Of a DNA stretch of 64,000 nt, positions 7,187-27,423 are shown in pieces; the stretch's first letter is position 1, and every line of letters begins with the position of its first letter. The notes beneath the pieces were generated by a model. The model was not told where the DNA came from. It ran no database searches and saw nothing but the letters and a program-made list of their open reading frames with translations. The stretch is from Roseateles saccharophilus. GTDB lineage: Bacteria; Pseudomonadota; Gammaproteobacteria; Burkholderiales; Burkholderiaceae_C. The position numbers and the translations under genes are program-made. The stretch is from positions 1-64,000 of the forward strand of contig NZ_SMBU01000012.1 of the NCBI RefSeq assembly GCF_004342485.1. The letters run 5' to 3'.

Positions 7187-7621
7187 ATGAAATACCTGCA
7201 CACCATGGTCCGCGTCCATGACCTGGACGCGTCGATGAAGTTCTACCGCGACGCCCTCGGCCTGCGCGAGGTCAGGCGCTCCGAGCACGAGGCCGGCCGC
7301 TTCACCCTCGTCTATCTCGCCGCACCCGGCGACGAGGACGCCCAGATCGAGCTGACCTACAACTGGCCCGACGCCAGCGGCCAGGTCGAGGCCTACGGCG
7401 GCGGCCGCAACTTCGGCCATGTGGCCTATGCGGTGGACGACATCTATGCCACCTGCCAGCGGCTGGCCGACCAGGGCGTGACGATCAACCGCCCGCCGCG
7501 CGACGGCCGCATGGCCTTCGTGCGCTCGCCCGATGGCATCTCCGTCGAACTGCTGCAGGCCGGCCCCGCGCTCGCCCCGGCCGAGCCCTGGGCGTCGATG
7601 CCCAACACCGGGGCCTGGTGA
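7187..7621 (+). CDS. gloA: Lactoylglutathione lyase (glyoxalase I)
   Basis: This 144-residue single-domain glyoxalase I converts the hemithioacetal of methylglyoxal and glutathione to S-lactoylglutathione. The four expected metal ligands are visible: His5 ([10 protein letters not shown]), the Glu in QIELTYNW, the His in NFGHVAYAV and the Glu in SVELLQ. The short form without the extra loops of the Zn enzymes fits the Ni-dependent bacterial class. The extended Pro/Ala-rich tail ([15 protein letters not shown]) is slightly longer than in E. coli GloA. It is convergent with the sensor kinase gene, 7 bases away. Confidence 0.92.
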
Positions 7622-7628
7622 ACCCCCG

Positions 7629-8789
7629 CTAAAAGACCACCTCGGCCCTGAGCCCGCCCTCGGGACGGTTGCCGAGCACCAGCACGGCGCCCTGCCGGCG
7701 CACCAGCTGCTGCGCGATGTACAGGCCCAGACCCGTGCCGCCGGTGGCGCGGTTGCGCGAGCCCTCGACGCGGCGGAAGGGCTGGCGCACGCGCTGCAGT
7801 TCGGCCTCGGGGATGCCGGGGCCGTCGTCCTCGACGACGAGGCGCGTGACGCCGGCCGACAGCGCCACGCTCACCCTCGCGCTGCCGGCATAGCGCAGCG
7901 CATTGCCGACGAGGTTGTCGATGACGCGGCGCAGCGCCAGCGGGTCGGCCGCCACGACCGCGGCCGGCCCCTCGAAGTTGACGGCGGCGCCGGTCTCGGC
8001 GAGGTCGTCCACGGCCGACTGGGCCAGGGCCGACAGGTCGACGCGCCGGGCCGGCGCCGCATCGGCCGGGCGGAAGACCTCGATGACGCTCTCCACCAGC
8101 CGGTTCATCTCGCGGATGTCGTCCACGCAGCGCTCGCGCACGCCGGCCTCGACCTCGCCCGTCTCCAGCCGCAGGCGCATGCGCGTCAGCGGCGTGCGCA
8201 GGTCGTGGGAGATGGCGGCGATCATCAGGCCGCGCTCCTCGAACTGGCCGCTCAGCTCGGCGGCCATGCGGTTGAAGACGGCCGCGGCGTCGCGCACCTC
8301 GCACGTGCCCTCGTCCTCATGCAACCGGGGCGCGGGCCGGCCCTGGGCCAGCGCGGGCGTCAGCCGCTGGGCCGCGCTGACGAGGCGGCGCACCGGCAGC
8401 GCCAGCCAGCGCGAGCCCCACCAGGCCGCCAGCGCGATGACGAGCAGGCGCACGCCGTAGTCGAGCAGGCCGGTGCGCCAGGGCAACGAGGGCGGCAGAG
8501 ACGGCGCGAGCGGCAGATGCCAGGCCATGCCCGGCGGGCCGTGCGGCTCATGCTCCTCGTGCCCGCCCGGCTCATGGGGCCGCCGCGGGCCCTCGCCGAA
8601 GCCCTCCGGCGGCGGCATCGGTGGCCCGCCGTCCTCGGCATGCGGGGCCGGCCGCTCGTGCGTCCCGACCGGGCCGTGCAGGGTCTGCGAGGCCAGCATC
8701 CAGGCGCTGACATGGCTGAGCACCAGCGCCCCCCACATCAGCAGGAACAGGCGCAGGCCCAGGCGGTCCCAGTTCTTGCGCTTCAGCAT
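7629..8789 (-). CDS. Sensor histidine kinase (EnvZ/RstB-like) with a His-rich periplasmic loop
   Basis: This 386-residue membrane kinase has two membrane segments (about 11-35 and 112-130) enclosing a periplasmic loop with at least eight histidines and many Pro/Glu (residues 38-91). A HAMP-like segment, the H-box SHDLRTPLTR with His195, and an HATPase with NLVGNALRYA, DDGPGIP and GGTGLGLYIA follow. The His-rich loop suggests metal-ion sensing, which is inference only. The start overlaps the response-regulator stop by 7 bases (ATGCTGA), so the two are translated as a pair. Confidence 0.9.
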   Translation of the reverse strand: MLKRKNWDRLGLRLFLLMWGALVLSHVSAWMLASQTLHGPVGTHERPAPHAEDGGPPMPPPEGFGEGPRRPHEPGGHEEHEPHGPPGMAWHLPLAPSLPPSLPWRTGLLDYGVRLLVIALAAWWGSRWLALPVRRLVSAAQRLTPALAQGRPAPRLHEDEGTCEVRDAAAVFNRMAAELSGQFEERGLMIAAISHDLRTPLTRMRLRLETGEVEAGVRERCVDDIREMNRLVESVIEVFRPADAAPARRVDLSALAQSAVDDLAETGAAVNFEGPAAVVAADPLALRRVIDNLVGNALRYAGSARVSVALSAGVTRLVVEDDGPGIPEAELQRVRQPFRRVEGSRNRATGGTGLGLYIAQQLVRRQGAVLVLGNRPEGGLRAEVVF

Positions 8790-9493
8790 GGCACCACCTC
8801 GGCGTCGAACAGATAGCCCTCGCCGCGCACGGTGCGGATCAGCGCCGGCTCGCGCGCCGTGTCGCCGAGCTTGGCGCGCAGCCTGGACACGGCCAGGTCG
8901 ATGCTGCGGTCGTTCACCTTCACGCCGGGCGCGCGGGTCATCTCGATGAGCTGGTCGCGGCCGAGCACGCGGCCCGGGCGCTGCACGAAGGCCGCGAGCA
9001 AGCGGAACTCGGCGCTGGACAGCGCGATGCCCACGTCATCGGCGCTCAGCAGCTGGCGCGCCAGGCGGTCGAAGCGCCAGCGGCCGAAGCGCAGCATGCG
9101 CGTGTCGTCCTGCAGCGCGCCGCCCCGGCTGGTACGCCTGACCAGGGCCTGCAGCCGCGCCACCAGCTCGCGCGGCTCGAAGGGCTTGGCCAGATAGTCG
9201 TCGGCCCCCAGCTCCAGGCCGATGACGCGGCTCATCGTGTCGCCGCGCGCCGTCAGCATCAGCACCGGCGGCGCGTCGGGCTGGGTGGAGAGCCAGCGCA
9301 GCAGGGCCAGGCCGTCCTCGCCGGGCAGCATCAGGTCCAGCACGATGACGTCGGCCTTGACCTGGGCCAGCAGCTGGCGCATCGCCCCGCCGTCCGCCGC
9401 CGCGTCGACCTGCCAGCCGAAACCCTGCAGATAGGCCGCCAGGCTGGTGCGGATCTCGGCGTCGTCATCGACGACGAGGCAATGTCCGTTCAT
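8783..9493 (-). CDS. OmpR-family response regulator
   Basis: This 236-residue regulator has a receiver domain (VVDDDAEIR acidic pocket, phospho-acceptor Asp53 in VLDLMLPGEDG, Lys in AKPFEP) and a C-terminal winged helix (SSAEFRLLAAF, DRSIDLAVSRLRAKLGD, IRTVRGEGYLF). It is the partner of the kinase encoded just downstream. The ATG at 9493 overlaps, as ATGA, the stop of the truncated dioxygenase-like gene upstream. All three genes form one operon, and translation of the regulator may be coupled to that odd first gene. Confidence 0.92.
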   Translation of the reverse strand: MNGHCLVVDDDAEIRTSLAAYLQGFGWQVDAAADGGAMRQLLAQVKADVIVLDLMLPGEDGLALLRWLSTQPDAPPVLMLTARGDTMSRVIGLELGADDYLAKPFEPRELVARLQALVRRTSRGGALQDDTRMLRFGRWRFDRLARQLLSADDVGIALSSAEFRLLAAFVQRPGRVLGRDQLIEMTRAPGVKVNDRSIDLAVSRLRAKLGDTAREPALIRTVRGEGYLFDAEVVPC

Positions 9494-9906
9494 GCGGCAA
9501 TTCCCACCTGCAGTCTGGCCACGTAGCCCGCGCCGACCGAACCGGCGATGCTGAAGATGCCGTCGCCGGCGGTGGCCTGCACGCCGCGCAGGTCGTTCTC
9601 GGCCGTCGCGCCGCTGGAGTACATGGAGTAGCGGCCCTCGGCATCGCATTGCCAGAGGTAGATGGCGTAGCCGGACAGGTCGGCGCAGGAGGCGTTGGCG
9701 TTCACGAGCTCGATGATGACCTGTGGCGGCACGCCCGTGGCGACACCGGTGGCGCCGGCGATGCTCGCGCGGATGTCGCTGCGCACGATGCCGCCCACCG
9801 TCAGCGCACCCGCGCCCAACAGCCAGCGCAGCGCGACGCGGCGCTCACGGGCCTGTTGCTGGAGGCGGCCGAGGTCGTGGGCCAGGCCCCGGTCGTGGTC
9901 GTGCAA
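9490..9906 (-). pseudogene. Internally deleted intradiol ring-cleavage dioxygenase-like protein
   Basis: About 138 residues from a TTG at 9906 read HDHDRGLAHDL at the N-terminus, then GGIVRSDIRASI, SGYAIYLWQCDAEGRYSMYS, AENDLRGVQ and a tail ending GYVARLQVGIAA. These blocks match, in order, predicted exported intradiol dioxygenases. Two stretches carrying the iron ligands are missing: the GPYPGD-type region before IVRSDI, and the GRWPHIHFE-type region after LRGVQ. The frame stays open across both gaps, so it is either an in-frame-decayed gene or a catalytically dead short protein kept as the first gene of the two-component operon. Its stop overlaps the regulator start (ATGA). The frame continues open upstream to 10074. 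The family comparison is from memory and would need an alignment. Confidence 0.6.
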
Positions 9907-10086
9907 TGCGTGCTCCGTCGGCTGGGATTGGAGCGATTGCAACGCCGCGATGTATCGAGGGAATCGGCAGATTGTGTCCGGCGCGAAACATTGGCCGGCC
10001 GGCTTCTGCCGGGGGCGTTTTCCACCCGGCGCACCGAGCCGACAGCATCCCCGCAAAGGCAAGCCGGCAGCCACCCAGCGCAGCCG

Positions 10087-21813: not shown

Positions 21814-22492
21814 TCGCCCGCGCCTGGGCCAGCAGGGCCGGCGACGGCCAGGCCACGGGAGTTCGCAGCGCGCCCGACGCGTCGGGCAGGCGGGCCAGCT
21901 GCAACACATGGCGGGGCACATCAGCCAGCTCGCGCACGAGGCGCAGCAGGCCGACATCGTCGAACCAGTTCGGATGGACGGTGCTGCGGCACTCAAAGTC
22001 CAGGCCACTGTCCTGCAGCAGGGCCAGCGATTCGCGCACCGCGCGCAGGCCGCCGCGCCGGCCGGTGATGCGGTCGTGCAAGCCCGCGTCGCCGGGCGCG
22101 GCCTTGATGTCCAGCCCCACCCAGTCGAGCCGCGGCAGCAGCGCGGCCAGGCGGCGCGGCGCGAGGCCGGCCGTGTGCAGGCCGATGGCATAGCCGAGGC
22201 CGCGCAGTTCGTCGATGGCGGCCGGCAGGGCCGGGTCCAGCGTCGGCTCGCCGCCGCTGAAGACGACGCCGTCGAGCCGCCCCAGGCGGTCTTCCAGCCA
22301 GTCGCGCAGCGCCGGCCACCGCGGCCCGCTGCCCTCGCCCTTCGCCTGCAGCGCCGGGTTGTGGCAGTAGCCGCAGCGCCAGGGGCAGCCCTGCAGGAAG
22401 ACGACGGCCGCGAGCCGGCCGGGGAGGTCGACGCTGCTGAAGGGCTGCAGGCCGGCAACGGCCAGCGCGTCGGCGCTCACGACGGCACGCAT
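21785..22492 (-). CDS. nrdG: Anaerobic ribonucleoside-triphosphate reductase-activating protein (radical SAM)
   Basis: This 235-residue radical SAM protein has the cluster motif CPWRCGYCHNP near residue 36-46, followed by GVVFSGGEPTLDPALP (SAM site). It generates the glycyl radical on NrdD under anoxia. The start overlaps the end of the 59-residue glycyl-radical gene by 16 bases, so the activator and its presumed substrate polypeptide are translationally coupled. The group fits the NrdG variants with an N-terminal GLQPFSSVDLPGRLAAVVF lead. Confidence 0.92.
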   Translation of the reverse strand: MRAVVSADALAVAGLQPFSSVDLPGRLAAVVFLQGCPWRCGYCHNPALQAKGEGSGPRWPALRDWLEDRLGRLDGVVFSGGEPTLDPALPAAIDELRGLGYAIGLHTAGLAPRRLAALLPRLDWVGLDIKAAPGDAGLHDRITGRRGGLRAVRESLALLQDSGLDFECRSTVHPNWFDDVGLLRLVRELADVPRHVLQLARLPDASGALRTPVAWPSPALLAQARAIRPGLQLRG

Positions 22493-22656
22493 GCCTCCTC
22501 GAAGTGCACACGCTCGGCGAACTCGCCCTGCTTGCCGATGTTGAAGCTCGCGACGGGCCGGTGGTAGCCCATCACACGGGTCCAGACCTCGCAGCGCTGG
22601 CGTTCCTCGTCGCTCAGCGTGATGTCCTGTTCTTGGCGTTCGATGACAGCGTTCAT
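22477..22656 (-). CDS. Stand-alone glycyl-radical polypeptide of class III ribonucleotide reductase
   Basis: This is a 59-residue protein whose core RCEVWTRVMGYHRPVASFN, followed by GKQGEFAERV, has the form of the C-terminal glycyl-radical loop of NrdD; Gly30 in RVMGY would carry the radical. The large NrdD upstream stops right after its zinc motif, just where this segment would normally follow. It is a separate gene, not a simple frame break: it lies in a different frame, 11 bases downstream, and has its own AAGGA seven bases before the ATG, overlapping the nrdD stop. The radical domain therefore appears to be supplied in trans, comparable to YfiD/GrcA for pyruvate formate-lyase. It overlaps nrdG by 16 bases. 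Confidence 0.8.
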   Translation of the reverse strand: MNAVIERQEQDITLSDEERQRCEVWTRVMGYHRPVASFNIGKQGEFAERVHFEEACVPS

Positions 22657-22667
22657 GGGGATGTCCT

Positions 22668-24677
22668 TCAGGCGGGTTGGGGTTGGGATTCGCGCTGCTT
22701 GCGGGCGAGGCGTTCCTCGTCGCACTTGGGGCAGAACTCGTGGTGGCCGCTCAGATAGCCGTGGGTCGGGCAGATCGAGAAGGTCGGCGTGACGGTGACA
22801 TAGGGCAGGCGGTGGTGGCTCAGCGCGCGCCTGACCAGTTCGCGGCAGGCGGTGGCCGAGCTGATGCGCTCGCTCATATAGAGGTGCAGCACCGTGCCGC
22901 CGGTGTATTTGCGCTGCAGCTCCTCCTGGCGCTCCAGCGCCTCGAAGGGGTCGTCGGTGAAGCCGACGGGCAGCTGCGAGCTGTTCGTGTAATAGGGATT
23001 CGCGTCGGTGCCGGCCTGCAGGATGGCGGGCCAGCGGCGGCGGTCTTCCTTCGCGAAGCGGTAGGTCGTGCCCTCGGCCGGCGTGGCCTCGAGGTTGTAG
23101 AGGTGGCCGGTCTGCTCCTGGAACTCGACCATGCGCGCGCGCACATGGTCCAGCAGGCGCACGGCGAGCGCATGGCCCTCAGGCGCCGTGATGTCGCACT
23201 CACCGCGCGTGAAGTTGCGCACCATCTCGTTGATGCCGTTCACGCCCAGCGTCGAGAAGTGGTTGCGCAGCGTGCGCAGATAGCGCCGCGTGTAGGGGAA
23301 GAGGCCCTGGTCGATGAGGCGCTGGATCAGCTTGCGCTTGATCTCCAGGCTGTCGCGGCCCAGTTCCAGCAGGCGGTCCAGGCGGGTCAGCAGGCCGGCC
23401 TCGTCGCCAGCGAACAGATGCCCGAGGCGCGCGCAGTTGACGGTGACGACGCCGACCGAGCCGGTCTGCTCGGCCGAGCCGAACAGGCCGTTGCCGCGCT
23501 TGAGCAGCTCGCGCAGGTCCAGCTGCAGGCGGCAGCACATGGAGCGCACCATCTGCGGCTCCAGGTCGGAGTTCAGGAAGTTCTGGAAGTAGGGCAGGCC
23601 GTAGCGCGCCGTCATCTCGAACAAGGCCTCGGTGTTGGGATGGGCCCAGTCGAAGTCCTTCGTGATGTTGTAGGTCGGGATGGGGAAGGTGAAGACGCGG
23701 CCCTTGGCGTCGCCGGCCGTCATCACGTCGATGTAGGCGCGGTTGATGAGGTCCATCTCGGCCTGCAGCTCGCCATAGCAGAAGGACTGCTCCTCGCCGG
23801 CGATGACGGGCACCTGCTCGGCGAGGTCGGCCGGGCAGGTCCAGTCGAAGGTGAGGTTGGTGAAGGGCGTCTGCGTGCCCCAGCGCGAGGGTACGTTGAG
23901 GTTGTAGATCAGCTCCTGCAGGCACTGGCGCACCTGCTCGTAGCTCAGGCCATCCTTGCGCACATAGGGCGCCAGATAGGTGTCGAAGCTGGAGAAGGCC
24001 TGGGCGCCGGCCCATTCGTTCTGCAGCGTGCCGAGGAAGTTGACGATCTGGCCGACCGCGCTTGAAAGGTGCTTGGGCGGCCCCGCCTCCACCTTGCCCG
24101 GCACGCCGTTGAGCCCCTCGTGCAGCAGCGTGCGCAGGCTCCAGCCGGCGCAATAGCCGCTGAGCATGTCGAGGTCGTGGATGTGGATGTCGGCCTCGCG
24201 GTGGGCGCGGCCGACCTCGGGCGGGTAGACATGGTCCAGCCAGTAGTTGGCCACCACCTTGCCCGACACGTTCAGGATCAGCCCACCCAGGCTCCAGCCC
24301 TGGTTGGCGTTGGCCTGGATGCGCCAGTCGCGCTGCTGCAGGTATTCGTCCATCGTCGCCTGCACGTCGACCAGGGTCTGGCGCGCATCGCGCAGGCGGC
24401 GGTGCTGCTCGCGGTAGACGGTGTAGGCGCGCAGCGTGCGGCGCCAGCCGGCACCGAACAGCGTGGACTCGACGGCGTCCTGGATCTGCTCGATGCCGGG
24501 CAGGGTGTGGGCCATCAGCTCGGGCAGCACGCCGTTCTCGGTCAGCCAGCGCGCCTCGTCCTCGCCGAACTCCGCGCTGGCCCGGCCGGCGGCGGCCAGG
24601 GCCTGGGCGATCTTGCCGGCATCGAAGGCCTGGAGGCGGCCATCGCGTTTCAGCACCTGCTGGGGATAGAGGCTCAT
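22668..24677 (-). CDS. nrdD: Class III (anaerobic) ribonucleoside-triphosphate reductase, large chain without glycyl-radical tail
   Basis: This 669-residue protein makes deoxyribonucleotides without oxygen. An ATP-cone (about 1-95, QQVLKRDGRLQAFDAGKIAQ) is followed by the catalytic barrel, with the thiyl-radical region RSMCCRLQLDLRELL and GSVGVVTVNCARLGHL, and finally the zinc motif CPTHGYLSGHHEFCPKC. It then ends with a short polar tail. The usual RVCGY-type glycyl-radical loop is absent from this chain and is found instead in the 59-residue gene downstream. An Fnr/Dnr-type box lies 82 bases upstream. Confidence 0.93.
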   Translation of the reverse strand: MSLYPQQVLKRDGRLQAFDAGKIAQALAAAGRASAEFGEDEARWLTENGVLPELMAHTLPGIEQIQDAVESTLFGAGWRRTLRAYTVYREQHRRLRDARQTLVDVQATMDEYLQQRDWRIQANANQGWSLGGLILNVSGKVVANYWLDHVYPPEVGRAHREADIHIHDLDMLSGYCAGWSLRTLLHEGLNGVPGKVEAGPPKHLSSAVGQIVNFLGTLQNEWAGAQAFSSFDTYLAPYVRKDGLSYEQVRQCLQELIYNLNVPSRWGTQTPFTNLTFDWTCPADLAEQVPVIAGEEQSFCYGELQAEMDLINRAYIDVMTAGDAKGRVFTFPIPTYNITKDFDWAHPNTEALFEMTARYGLPYFQNFLNSDLEPQMVRSMCCRLQLDLRELLKRGNGLFGSAEQTGSVGVVTVNCARLGHLFAGDEAGLLTRLDRLLELGRDSLEIKRKLIQRLIDQGLFPYTRRYLRTLRNHFSTLGVNGINEMVRNFTRGECDITAPEGHALAVRLLDHVRARMVEFQEQTGHLYNLEATPAEGTTYRFAKEDRRRWPAILQAGTDANPYYTNSSQLPVGFTDDPFEALERQEELQRKYTGGTVLHLYMSERISSATACRELVRRALSHHRLPYVTVTPTFSICPTHGYLSGHHEFCPKCDEERLARKQRESQPQPA

Positions 24678-24758: not shown

Positions 24759-24772
24759 TTGAACCAAGTCAA
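24759..24772. promoter_or_regulatory. Fnr/Dnr-type box upstream of nrdD
   Basis: TTGAACCAAGTCAA keeps both TTGA and TCAA half-sites. The centre is 88 bases from the nrdD ATG, leaving a leader of about 47 bases for a class II promoter. The box overlaps the last codons of ubiT, so the nrd operon promoter is embedded in the end of the ubi operon. Confidence 0.7.
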
Positions 24773-25191
24773 GAAACGGGCGCACTCCACAGCGGCCCGA
24801 TGGCGTCCAGCGTGTTCTTCAGGATCAGGCCGTATTCGGTGTCGCCCTCCATGACCAGGGCACCGTCGAAGAACAGGCGATCGGCGTCGTCCTGGCCGCG
24901 CAGCAGCCGCCACAGCGCATCGGCGCGGGCACGCAGGCGCAACCGCGCCGCGCCGCCCTCCCCGGCCGCGCGAAAGCCCCGCTCGCCGAGAAGCAGCCGC
25001 ACGCGGGCGCCCAGCTCCTGCAGCTCGATCTCGACGGTCTGGCCCTGCAGGGCCTGGCGCTGCGACGCGTCCAGCCGCGGCAGCAGCAGGCGGTCCAGCA
25101 ACAGCGCCAGCAGCGTGGACGGCGGGCGGCTGGGCAGGCGGGCGACACGCTCGCGCCATTGGGCGGGCAGGCTGGGCAGCGTCGTGTTCAT
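24769..25191 (-). CDS. ubiT: UbiT, SCP2-domain lipid-binding protein of anaerobic ubiquinone synthesis
   Basis: This 140-residue protein with an SCP2-type lipid-binding fold (VEIELQELGARVRLLLGERG, ADRLFFDGALVMEGDTEYGL, the latter typical of YhbT/UbiT) follows ubiV with an ATGA overlap. UbiT with UbiU and UbiV allows ubiquinone to be made without O2, and UbiT is thought to carry the hydrophobic quinone intermediates. In a nitrate respirer this keeps quinol supplied to NarI and quinol-type NorB. Confidence 0.9.
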   Translation of the reverse strand: MNTTLPSLPAQWRERVARLPSRPPSTLLALLLDRLLLPRLDASQRQALQGQTVEIELQELGARVRLLLGERGFRAAGEGGAARLRLRARADALWRLLRGQDDADRLFFDGALVMEGDTEYGLILKNTLDAIGPLWSAPVS

Positions 25192-26084
25192 GCGGCTTCC
25201 TTCAAACCCGCCTCACGGCGCGCAAAGCCGTCCACCAGGCGGCCGGACAGAGGCAGCGCGCGCAGCTCGGCCAGCGCATCTGCGGCATCGGTACCCCGCG
25301 CGAACACCGCGTCGAAGAGCTCGACGACGCGGCCGAAATGCGCGCCACAAGGCGACAGCCGCAGCAGGCCCACGCCGGCCTCGCGCAGCGCCGCGCCGTG
25401 GCCGAGCAGGCATTGCAGCGCCGCGCTCTGCGTCTGGATGCCGTTGAGCGCGAGGAAGTCCTCGCCCTCCCCGGTCTTCAGCAGCAGGCCGTCGGCATCG
25501 TCGCGGCAGCGGAACTGGCAGTCGTCCTTCTGCAGCCGGTGGTGGCGGGCCGTGAAGCAGCGCGCCGAGAAGGCCAGCGGCAGGCGGCCAAAGCCCCAGA
25601 CCTCAGTCTGGATGGCCGACGGCGCCGGGTTGATGCGGCCCACCGCGTCCAGCGACAGCTCGACCGGCGCGACCCAGCGATCAGCGCCCAGCACCGCATG
25701 CTCGGCCAGCGCGGCGGCGTTGTAGATGTTGATGTGCGGGCCCAGCGTCAGCGGCCGGCGGCCCAGGCGCGACAGCACCTGCAGCGCGGCCGCGTCGCCG
25801 GCCTCGACCGGGAACTCGTCCTGCTCGCAGACGCGGCGCAGCGTGCGCAGCTCGGCCTCGCTCATGACCAGGGCCATCGTCGCCAGGCGCACCTCCTTGC
25901 CGGCCGCACGAAGCTCGCGGGCGATGGCCAGCCAGTCGTCGAACCTGATCTCGTTGCGCCGCGAGCAGACCAGCTCGCCGAGCACGATGCTGTGCACCGG
26001 CGCGTCGGCCAGGTCGGCATAGAAGTTCAGCAGCGCCTCGCGCGGCCACCAGTACAGCAGCGGCCCTACCGAAAGCTCGATCAT
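25188..26084 (-). CDS. ubiV: UbiV, U32-type O2-independent ubiquinone hydroxylase component
   Basis: This 298-residue U32-family protein has the cysteines expected to hold a 4Fe-4S cluster in UbiV: Cys40 (GELVCSRRNE) and the later group CFTARHHRLQKDDCQFRC. UbiU-UbiV add ring hydroxyls during anaerobic ubiquinone synthesis. ATG 26084 with GGAG six bases upstream gives the family length; in-frame ATGs at 26096 and 26108 are less well placed. The ubiU gene lies 136 bases upstream, with a structured spacer between. Confidence 0.92.
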   Translation of the reverse strand: MIELSVGPLLYWWPREALLNFYADLADAPVHSIVLGELVCSRRNEIRFDDWLAIARELRAAGKEVRLATMALVMSEAELRTLRRVCEQDEFPVEAGDAAALQVLSRLGRRPLTLGPHINIYNAAALAEHAVLGADRWVAPVELSLDAVGRINPAPSAIQTEVWGFGRLPLAFSARCFTARHHRLQKDDCQFRCRDDADGLLLKTGEGEDFLALNGIQTQSAALQCLLGHGAALREAGVGLLRLSPCGAHFGRVVELFDAVFARGTDAADALAELRALPLSGRLVDGFARREAGLKEAA

Positions 26085-26104
26085 CAAATACTCCATCAAT
26101 ACAT

Positions 26105-26220
26105 GCACGGCGCCCGGCGCGAGCCGGGCACCCCATCAAGCAGCCGCCGTGGAACCGGCTTTGCCGGGCCACTGGCGGCGCCCCTGGGGGGAGGCGCGCA
26201 GCGCCTACGGGGGGGTCTAT
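26105..26220 (-). repeat. GC-rich structured spacer between ubiU and ubiV
   Basis: This spacer carries several short inverted repeats (GGCGC/GCGCC around 26192-26204; CCCGGC/GCCGGG near its left end) and runs of six to seven C or G. It looks like the small intergenic elements scattered in Burkholderiales genomes. Only one copy is present here, and it interrupts an otherwise compact operon. Confidence 0.5.
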
Positions 26221-27261
26221 TCACCTCCAGGGCTTGTCGTAGGCGCCCAGCGTGTGCTGCTGGCCCTCGGCCCAGCGGGCGAGCTGGCCGTCCCAGGCCG
26301 GCTGCACGCTGTAGCGGCCGCGGCCCACATGGGCGGCCCAGGCGGTGTCGATGGCGCTGCGCCAGACCTTGGTGACCTCGGCCACATAGGCCGGGCTGCG
26401 CTGACGGCCCTCGATCTTGATCGCGCTGACGCCGGAGGCGATCAGCTGCGGCAGCAGGGCCAGGGTGTTGAGGCTGGTGGGCTCTTCCAGCGCGTAGTCG
26501 CGCGCCAATGCGCCGACCTCGAAGCGGCCCTTGCACAGCGTCGGGTAGCCGCGCGGCTCGCCGGGGCGGTAGTGGTCGATCAGCACGCCACCCAGGCGGG
26601 CACGCACGCCGTCCGCGGCCTCGTCCCAGCGCACCGCCGCGGGCGGCGAGCAGACGCCGGCCGTGTTGGGCGACTGGCCCGTCGCGTAGCTGGACAGCGC
26701 GCAGCGCCCCTCCACCATCACGCACAGGCTGCCGAAGCCGAAGACCTCGACCGGCACCTCGCAGTGCCGGATCAGCTGCTGCACCTGCTGCAGCGTCAGC
26801 ACGCGCGGCAGCACGGCGCGCTCGATGCCGTAACGCTCGCGGTAGAAGGCGATAGCCTCGTGATTGGTGGCCGAGGCCTGCACCGACAGATGCAGGCGCA
26901 CCTGCGGATGGCGGCGGCGCGCGTCGACCAGCACGGCGCTGTCGGCCACGATGAGGGCATCGGCGCCGAGCTCGGCGGCCTGGTCGACGGCACGCTGCCA
27001 GGGCGCCGTGTCGCGCGCATCGGCAAAGGTGTTCAGCGCCATCAGCACCTGGCGGCCCTGGCGGTGCGCGAGCGCCACGCCTTCGCGCACCTGGGCGGCG
27101 TCGAAGTTCAGGCCGGCGAAGTTGCGCGCATTGGTGGCGTCCTTCAGGCCCAGGTAGACGGCATCGGCACCGGCCTCGAGGGCCAGTTGCAGCGCGCGCA
27201 GAGAGCCGGCCGGGCAGACCAGTTCGGGCTTGCGTGACGGCGGGGAGTAATCAGCGGACAT
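26221..27261 (-). CDS. ubiU: UbiU, U32-type O2-independent ubiquinone hydroxylase component
   Basis: This 346-residue U32-family protein starts PELVCPAGSLRALQLALEAG and contains the UbiU cluster cysteines in GFGSLCVMVEGRCALSSY, NTAGVCSPP and PTLCKGRFEV. It partners UbiV in anaerobic ring hydroxylation of ubiquinone precursors. The start at ATG 27261 is chosen by alignment of the conserved N-terminus; an ATG at 27270 is also in frame, and neither has a strong ribosome-binding site. Between it and the DUF2249 gene lies the second interspersed repeat. Confidence 0.92.
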   Translation of the reverse strand: MSADYSPPSRKPELVCPAGSLRALQLALEAGADAVYLGLKDATNARNFAGLNFDAAQVREGVALAHRQGRQVLMALNTFADARDTAPWQRAVDQAAELGADALIVADSAVLVDARRRHPQVRLHLSVQASATNHEAIAFYRERYGIERAVLPRVLTLQQVQQLIRHCEVPVEVFGFGSLCVMVEGRCALSSYATGQSPNTAGVCSPPAAVRWDEAADGVRARLGGVLIDHYRPGEPRGYPTLCKGRFEVGALARDYALEEPTSLNTLALLPQLIASGVSAIKIEGRQRSPAYVAEVTKVWRSAIDTAWAAHVGRGRYSVQPAWDGQLARWAEGQQHTLGAYDKPWR

Positions 27262-27282
27262 CAGAGTCATACGATCTTTTGG

Positions 27283-27374
27283 CTTGCGGGCCGAGCGCCG
27301 GGCCGCTCCCAAGCCGGCCCGGTTGGCGATGTGCTCGCGGCTCGATGCCGCGAGCATCGCCGTCCCCTCGGGGG
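27283..27374 (-). repeat. Interspersed intergenic repeat, copy 2
   Basis: These 92 bases are about 93% identical to 13637-13729. In this copy the inner stem is perfect: GCTCGCGGC and GCCGCGAGC around TCGAT. It lies between the DUF2249 gene and ubiU, within a probable operon, in the same orientation to the minus-strand gene that follows as copy 1. Confidence 0.85.
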
Positions 27375-27423
27375 ACCGGCTGGGCACGCCCGCGTCCAGC
27401 GAGGCGCGACCGGCCGAGGGGTT

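Follow-up and report, generated by a model that had tools for sequence, protein, structure and literature searches.

A class III ribonucleotide reductase with its predicted glycyl-radical loop on a separate 59-residue protein in Roseateles saccharophilus and related bacteria

Class III ribonucleotide reductases (RNRs) supply DNA precursors to anaerobes. We analyzed a 64,000-nucleotide stretch of the Roseateles saccharophilus genome (assembly GCF_004342485.1, contig NZ_SMBU01000012.1, positions 1 to 64,000; the window), in which the gene for such an enzyme, nrdD, stops short of the glycyl-radical loop, and a small open reading frame (ORF) between nrdD and the activase gene nrdG encodes that loop. 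Sequence comparison makes it very probable, taken as one joint claim, that the locus encodes a class III RNR with its glycyl-radical loop on a subunit of its own, that the subunit docks by the mechanism set out below, and that copies on phages and plasmids feed host NrdD. What the preliminary description of this DNA had presented as a local oddity is shared as a fixed character across a large clade, in which the split is real, widespread, and old.

As the preliminary description had claimed, the 669-residue NrdD ends directly past its zinc motif, the C terminus CPTHGYLSGHHEFCPKCDEERLARKQRESQPQPA being followed by a stop codon (22668–22670, minus strand), and its match to the Pfam family NRDD (PF13597) covers columns 2–531 only. 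The RVMGY loop was likewise confirmed in a 59-residue ORF on the same strand (ATG at 22656–22654, stop at 22477), which follows the nrdD stop after 11 nt in a different frame, has its own Shine-Dalgarno (SD) motif, and overlaps nrdG by 16 nt. The small protein consists of the radical loop and a short N-terminal extension only, and the codon of its predicted radical glycine, Gly30, is at 22567–22569. The activase gene extends to 21785 and was counted as part of the nrdD set.

The large chain scored 1111.6 bits against NF006126 (cut-off 548), 454.5 bits against TIGR02487 (cut-off 326.35), and 570.3 bits against NRDD (cut-off 26.2), and it contains an ATP-cone (PF03477, 58 bits). The small protein matched columns 531–562 of the same NRDD profile at 33.3 bits, and these two chains are the only NRDD matches in the genome. 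No glycyl-radical motif was found elsewhere in the large chain, in keeping with the preliminary description, and NRDD columns 532–562 matched the small ORF alone. The activase scored 166.4 bits against TIGR02495 (cut-off 131.15), indicating that a dedicated radical S-adenosylmethionine (SAM) activase is present. Profiles of class I and class II RNRs matched the large chain over residues 6–111 only, which is the ATP-cone region; two class I/II large-subunit matches occur in the genome. Identity of the large chain with NrdJ, the split class II enzyme, was rejected, the chain being of the NRDD family.

The MCCR finger loop and the C-terminal Cys/His/Cys/Cys ligands, for which metal binding is predicted, were invariant across a 43-row alignment; the zinc-site residues are Cys636, His639, Cys649, and Cys652 in one relative (L085; L and G numbers denote loci and genomes). 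The loop of the small protein aligned with that of single-chain NrdDs. By homology, the large chain is a class III RNR in which one feature of class III NrdD, a glycyl-radical motif in the same chain as the barrel, has no match. The system resembles the single-chain enzymes of phage T4, Escherichia coli, Prevotella copri, and Thermotoga maritima in family, predicted fold, ATP-cone (present in many), finger loop, zinc-site residues, and RVxGY-type loop, but differs from them in having the loop encoded by a gene of its own, with the division falling between the zinc motif and the loop.

With just 11 nt between them, the two ORFs might be one gene broken by a sequencing error, or might be joined by frameshifting or readthrough into a single-chain NrdD, and truly joined forms do occur in some relatives. 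We examined 138 adjacent split loci, 137 of them with a start. The small ORF was in the same frame as nrdD in 30 of the 137, a further point for such a joining, but it was offset by one nucleotide in 47 and by two in 60, and the gaps ranged from −41 to 549 nt (the start being chosen by the analyst). An SD-like motif stood ahead of the chosen ATG in all 137, the choice of start having favored such motifs, and an NrdG match lay in the fetched stretch in 135 of the 138. At each of 18 further same-frame junctions that were inspected, one or two stops separated the parts. The fixed offset and short conserved overlap that mark a programmed frameshift were not found across the homologues.

Some genomes do not keep the genes adjacent. 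In G523, a distance of 9 kb separates nrdD from the small gene and nrdG, which stay together; in G668 this pair is on a contig other than that of nrdD; in G570 the loop is likewise on a separate contig from nrdD; and in G578 the small gene lies 2.2 kb downstream beyond an ORF on the opposite strand, with NrdG not found in the 9 kb fetched. Four of 80 named-genome loci (L122, L132, L133, and L153) have the small gene and NrdG without NrdD in the fetched stretch. Away from nrdD, the small gene thus tends to keep nrdG (G523, G668, and these four loci), G578 being the exception. Where the genes are 9 kb apart or on different contigs, the radical-loop protein must act in trans. Given the three offsets, the varied gaps, and the distant genes, frameshifting into one fused product is ruled out as a general mechanism. 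The identical division in dozens of genomes, the stand-alone copies described below, and the annotation of the small ORF as its own coding sequence (CDS) in RefSeq, found in all five examined records with a separate small gene and a gene table, also speak against a broken or joined gene, which we regard as very improbable. The RefSeq name for the small ORF is “nrdD.”

The preliminary description had called for a survey of homologues for the same split, and this bore it out. Genome samples at the levels of family, class, order, and phylum, with the R. saccharophilus genome included, were searched with PF13597; the samples overlap, and their counts are not additive. NRDD matches were found in 24 of 150 genomes in the family sample (22 split, 1 joined with an E. 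coli-like NrdD in G126, 1 partial), in 38 of 369 in the class sample (28 split, 7 joined, 3 partial or weak), and in 95 of 300 in the order sample (76 split, 17 joined, 2 partial or weak). In 71 of the 76 split cases of the order sample, a loopless chain is accompanied by a distinct loop match; in the other 5, the parts are in frame with a single stop between them. Among the 57 of 398 phylum-sample genomes with an NRDD match, a separate loop in another frame or place was seen in 12, and most of the other 45 were one-piece. This pattern indicates that the split is a mark of the NF006126-type clade and not of class III RNRs at large.

A pattern search of genomes matched at least 583 stretches, of which 580 encode a relative of the small protein; the best 80 loci were kept. 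Named split loci include Cupriavidus necator H16, Sulfuricurvum kujiense, and Thiothrix fructosivorans, the large gene of the last being in two pieces and unannotated. Massilia sp. H-1 (L112) is seemingly joined, but with NrdD broken into three pieces and NrdG into two it was not counted as a fusion. Plasmid records encoding the small protein numbered 29; judged by coordinates, 22 are split, 5 are joined, and 2 have no large gene among the matches listed. For one of these organisms a cellular role is on record: NrdDG of C. necator H16 is called essential for complete denitrification in the genome paper on Cupriavidus metallidurans CH34, which cites Siedow 1999 (PMC2864759). The H16 locus is one of the split ones, so it is very probable that a class III RNR in two parts functions in vivo. 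The same paper lists the CH34 NrdDG as Rmet_5137 and Rmet_5139; the CH34 small gene adjoins its nrdD and is presumably the skipped Rmet_5138.

We next consider the history of the split. A tree of 151 large chains, trimmed before the zinc motif and loop, contained three changes of the split/joined label, as did an IQ-TREE analysis of 57 rows that included viral members; with three joined plasmid genes added, five changes were needed. Support within the split clade was uneven, so that the number of re-fusions should be read as what the trees require and not as settled; the trees leave out L125 and other partial chains, whose length did not suffice. The simplest history is one fission followed by several re-fusions. 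Re-fused genes occur in group f218, L024, Acidiphilium cryptum, and Actinomyces oris, with the loop placed shortly after the zinc motif and the order of the parts kept. The split clade also takes in Sulfuricurvum, Omnitrophota, and one actinobacterial metagenome-assembled genome (MAG). In the alphaproteobacterial MAG SZUA-601 (L125:1375-1700), NrdD is joined in frame via a linker to two tandem loops, which are identical over 37 residues and differ in their DNA at 15 third codon positions.

Every one of the 235 loci that matched the loop carries the radical motif; in 11 of them (10 if L112 is left out) the loop shares an open frame with NrdD, and one locus was entered twice. The pattern searches contain parts of the motif, so motif counts from them are biased; 70 of the 235 loci come from the NRDD-family genome searches and not from motif patterns. 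The ratio of nonsynonymous to synonymous differences (pN/pS) in a 33-codon core of the small gene was 0.138 for 64 independent bacterial pairs and 0.169 for 20 viral pairs. These data indicate that the core of the small gene is under purifying selection. The preliminary description's idea of a radical site supplied in trans therefore stands as regards a separate, conserved, and selected loop protein, necessarily acting in trans where the genes lie apart; as a whole, the interpretation is partly supported. A cysteine, Cys22 (codon 22591–22593), lies 8 residues N-terminal of the radical glycine and is present in 227 of the 235 loop matches; the position is Thr in the joined L023, L024, and L046 and Cys in the joined L022.

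The small gene also occurs alone. In IMG/VR, a collection of uncultured viruses, 220 stretches matched the search patterns and 206 of them encode a relative of the small protein. In 79 of the best 80 loci, neither NrdD nor NrdG was matched within the stretch retrieved, which had flanks of at most 4 kb. Fifty of the 80 viral records, a set that holds near-identical rows, were searched whole: 49 matched only the loop columns, one of these (G818) having a second, weak match at columns 486–538, and one record also has a split NrdD. A terminase match was found in 19 of the 50, including the record with NrdD; the records may be fragments. Of 20 neighboring ORFs from 11 viral loci, 16 matched a PHROG, including a major head protein (L184), terminase (L189, L231), portal (L189), tape measure (L178), tail fibers (L200, L208, L232), replication genes (L202), and an HNH endonuclease (L242); the scanned neighbors of L243 and L165 matched none. 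The best-matching PHROG for the small protein itself is phrog_4132 (179 positions, annotated as of unknown function), with the loop at 115–157. All 79 viral stand-alone copies keep the radical motif, as RVMGY in 76 and as RCMGY in 3; one of the two search patterns contains the motif. The loop ORFs of L220, L221, and L234 have a longer N-terminal part with Cys. A search seeded on the large chain gave 29 viral loci. The viral single-chain NrdDs of L285, L286, L288, L289, L291-L294, L299, L302, and L305 carry a CPNCK/CHNCK-like C-terminal motif past the loop that looks redoxin-like.

Several bacterial genomes that also have a split nrdD carry extra copies of the small gene. The extra copy lies beside an integrase and a tail fiber assembly gene in G756, and beside RecE, RecT, and a phage-type RNR large-subunit gene in G414 (L277:4803-4991 and 7215-9965). 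Those of G767 are near ORFs matching phage families, mostly of unknown function, and G591 and G684 have one extra copy each on another contig. On plasmids of Allochromatium vinosum and A. tepidum, the small gene is found without nrdD or nrdG nearby (L313:2460-2645, L083:3986-4195).

Structure prediction was performed with AlphaFold2 on one tethered chain from the relative L085, in which a single TGA between the in-frame genes was read as Trp; L085 shares 96% identity with the NrdD of the window across 629 columns. With a 43-row alignment that included 13 natural single-chain viral NrdDs, the mean predicted local distance difference test score (pLDDT) was 86.2, and blocks within 691–730 reached 77–91. 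The 36 best Foldseek matches of this model in the PDB were all class III RNRs (query template-modeling score 0.54–0.66), led by those from P. copri, Streptococcus thermophilus, T. maritima, and T4; a search of solved structures with the small protein alone gave no match. The tethered model thus agrees with the small chain occupying the usual position of the loop.

In the proposed mechanism, the small protein would dock in the barrel where an ordinary NrdD has its C-terminal loop, and NrdG2 would abstract a hydrogen from Gly30. The glycyl radical would then generate a thiyl radical on a finger-loop cysteine, and nucleotide reduction would proceed as in other class III enzymes. Oxygen is described as destroying class III RNRs through cleavage of the chain at the radical glycine (PMC3019208). 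Because the radical would sit on the 59-residue chain, cleavage would hit that chain only, and supplying a new one could reactivate the large catalytic chain; such cheap replacement is plausible. Phages, prophages, and some plasmids with the small gene alone would most simply be providing new radical subunits for host NrdD during infection, and the small parts of uncultured viruses are perhaps spares for the host enzyme.

Known spare parts provide one close parallel. YfiD/GrcA and phage T4 Y06I are described as small glycyl-radical proteins that serve as spare parts for pyruvate formate-lyase (PFL) and are activated by the activase of the partner enzyme (PMC8683613). The present protein is likewise a small carrier of a glycyl-radical site encoded by bacteria and phage, but it belongs to NRDD and not to the Gly_radical family, its partner is an RNR, and the main enzyme has no loop of its own. 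Having lost that loop, the main enzyme makes the small part look obligate, not a repair part only. The small protein may work like GrcA, though outside that family. That it is in fact a YfiD/GrcA repairing PFL, beside nrdD by chance, we consider next to impossible. The logic is similar, and the small protein has little beyond its glycyl-radical site, but PF01228 (Gly_radical) matched neither it nor anything else in the genome, so that no PFL or GrcA was found there, and the neighboring NrdD is without a loop. A GrcA/PFL role was therefore rejected for this genome, as far as PF01228 detects.

Whether the subunit is exchanged is a closer question. It could be obligate and permanently bound, the outcome of a neutral fission kept by chance. 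One deep origin with repeated re-fusion fits this, as do genes that are mostly adjacent with short gaps, and the split class II RNR NrdJa/NrdJb of Pseudomonas aeruginosa is a precedent, both parts being reported as needed in vivo (PMC4520616). That enzyme is likewise encoded in two parts but is of another RNR class; NrdJb is described there as acting in cysteine thiol-disulfide exchange and, on our reading, carries no radical. Copies that stand alone, whether in viral records, in prophage-like regions, or on plasmids, suggest instead, together with the tandem-loop fusion, that extra loops are useful, and we hold a permanently fixed subunit to be possible but somewhat doubtful. The phage-borne proteins might alternatively be decoys or inhibitors of host NrdD, since they stand alone and without demonstrated host contact. 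A decoy would not need the glycine, yet the motif is kept in every viral stand-alone copy (in the biased count given above) and the viral residues are under purifying selection; this alternative is improbable. The chances seem to us evenly balanced that the radical sits on an exchangeable subunit and that, among anaerobic or denitrifying bacteria, many have viruses with an autonomous copy that fits the loopless NrdD of the host. The viral stand-alone copies are what most favors a spare-part role.

Several observations weigh against exchange and docking as proposed here. With 37 split-type rows alone, the AlphaFold2 model had a mean pLDDT of 74.8 and a loop under pLDDT 50; the single-chain rows may have biased the loop into place in the better model, and either model, being of one read-through chain, says nothing on docking in trans. 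No terminase match was found in 31 of the 50 viral records searched whole. Among 50,697 named-phage records, no copy could be called stand-alone, and the viral stand-alone evidence thus comes from uncultured IMG/VR records alone. The 59-residue query gave two named-phage records, the ANMV-1 virus (annotated RNR) and MT835493 (loop match 3 nt after the large-chain match). A viral-copy query at E up to 10 gave ten; the one inspected, a Gordonia phage match, crosses an annotated gene start and was dropped as chance. The spare-part role is drawn from analogy and from stand-alone copies in uncultured records, many of them fragments.

A literature search of titles, abstract beginnings, and passages, in which subscription journals were thinly covered, gave no recognizable description of a separate NrdD radical loop. 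Phage nrdD genes are reported in pieces through introns, inteins, or fragmentation, for example in phiAS4 and Lactococcus phage 949 (PMC3653736); in the sections of that source used here, the pieces are intron- or decay-related where explained, and none described isolates the radical loop. Split NrdJ has been called the sole split RNR in a non-viral organism (Crona et al. 2015, PMC4520616), a statement suggesting that the present case has been overlooked despite its genes being in many genomes. Andorfer et al. 2021 (PMC8683613) describe spare parts as validated for PFL only and suggest that other glycyl-radical enzymes may have them as well.

The features of the locus are collected in Table 1. 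The sequence TTGA-N6-TCAA, which we take to be the FNR consensus, occurs six times in the window (10971, 16910, 24759, 27760, 43008, and 49836) against 0.07 expected; the site ahead of nrdD would presumably act in its promoter. With its six FNR-type sites, the window looks like an anaerobic-respiration island.

Table 1. The nrdD locus and neighboring features in the window
Feature	Coordinates	Strand	Basis
nrdD, loopless catalytic chain of class III RNR (by homology), 669 residues	22668..24677	−	NF006126, PF13597, and PF03477 profiles
nrdD domain layout: ATP-cone 7–93, barrel with MCCR finger loop, zinc motif; no glycyl-radical loop			
Predicted separate glycyl-radical subunit, 59 residues, RVMGY	22477..22656	−	ORF and PF13597 columns 531–562, E 2.8e-8
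Putative SD motif AAGGA of the small ORF	22664..22668	−	7 nt ahead of the ATG; shares one base with the nrdD stop
nrdG2-type radical SAM activase, 235 residues	21785..22492	−	TIGR02495, 166.4 bits; PF04055, 62.2 bits
FNR-type palindrome TTGA-N6-TCAA, candidate anaerobic promoter element	24759..24772	none	81 bp before the nrdD start
ubiT, anaerobic ubiquinone gene next to nrdD	24769..25191	−	NF047962
ubiV, context gene	25188..26108	−	NF047965
ubiU, context gene	26221..27387	−	NF047963

A radical glycine on a detachable 59-residue subunit would make the installation, exchange, and repair of the radical testable with two clean proteins. The system is a direct candidate for a spare part beyond PFL, in the tractable organisms C. 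necator H16 and Paracoccus denitrificans. If the proposal is true, spare-part radical cofactors would extend for the first time beyond PFL to another glycyl-radical enzyme, here one that has evolved to depend on the part. Through the viral copies, an RNR radical subunit would then join the auxiliary genes of viruses.

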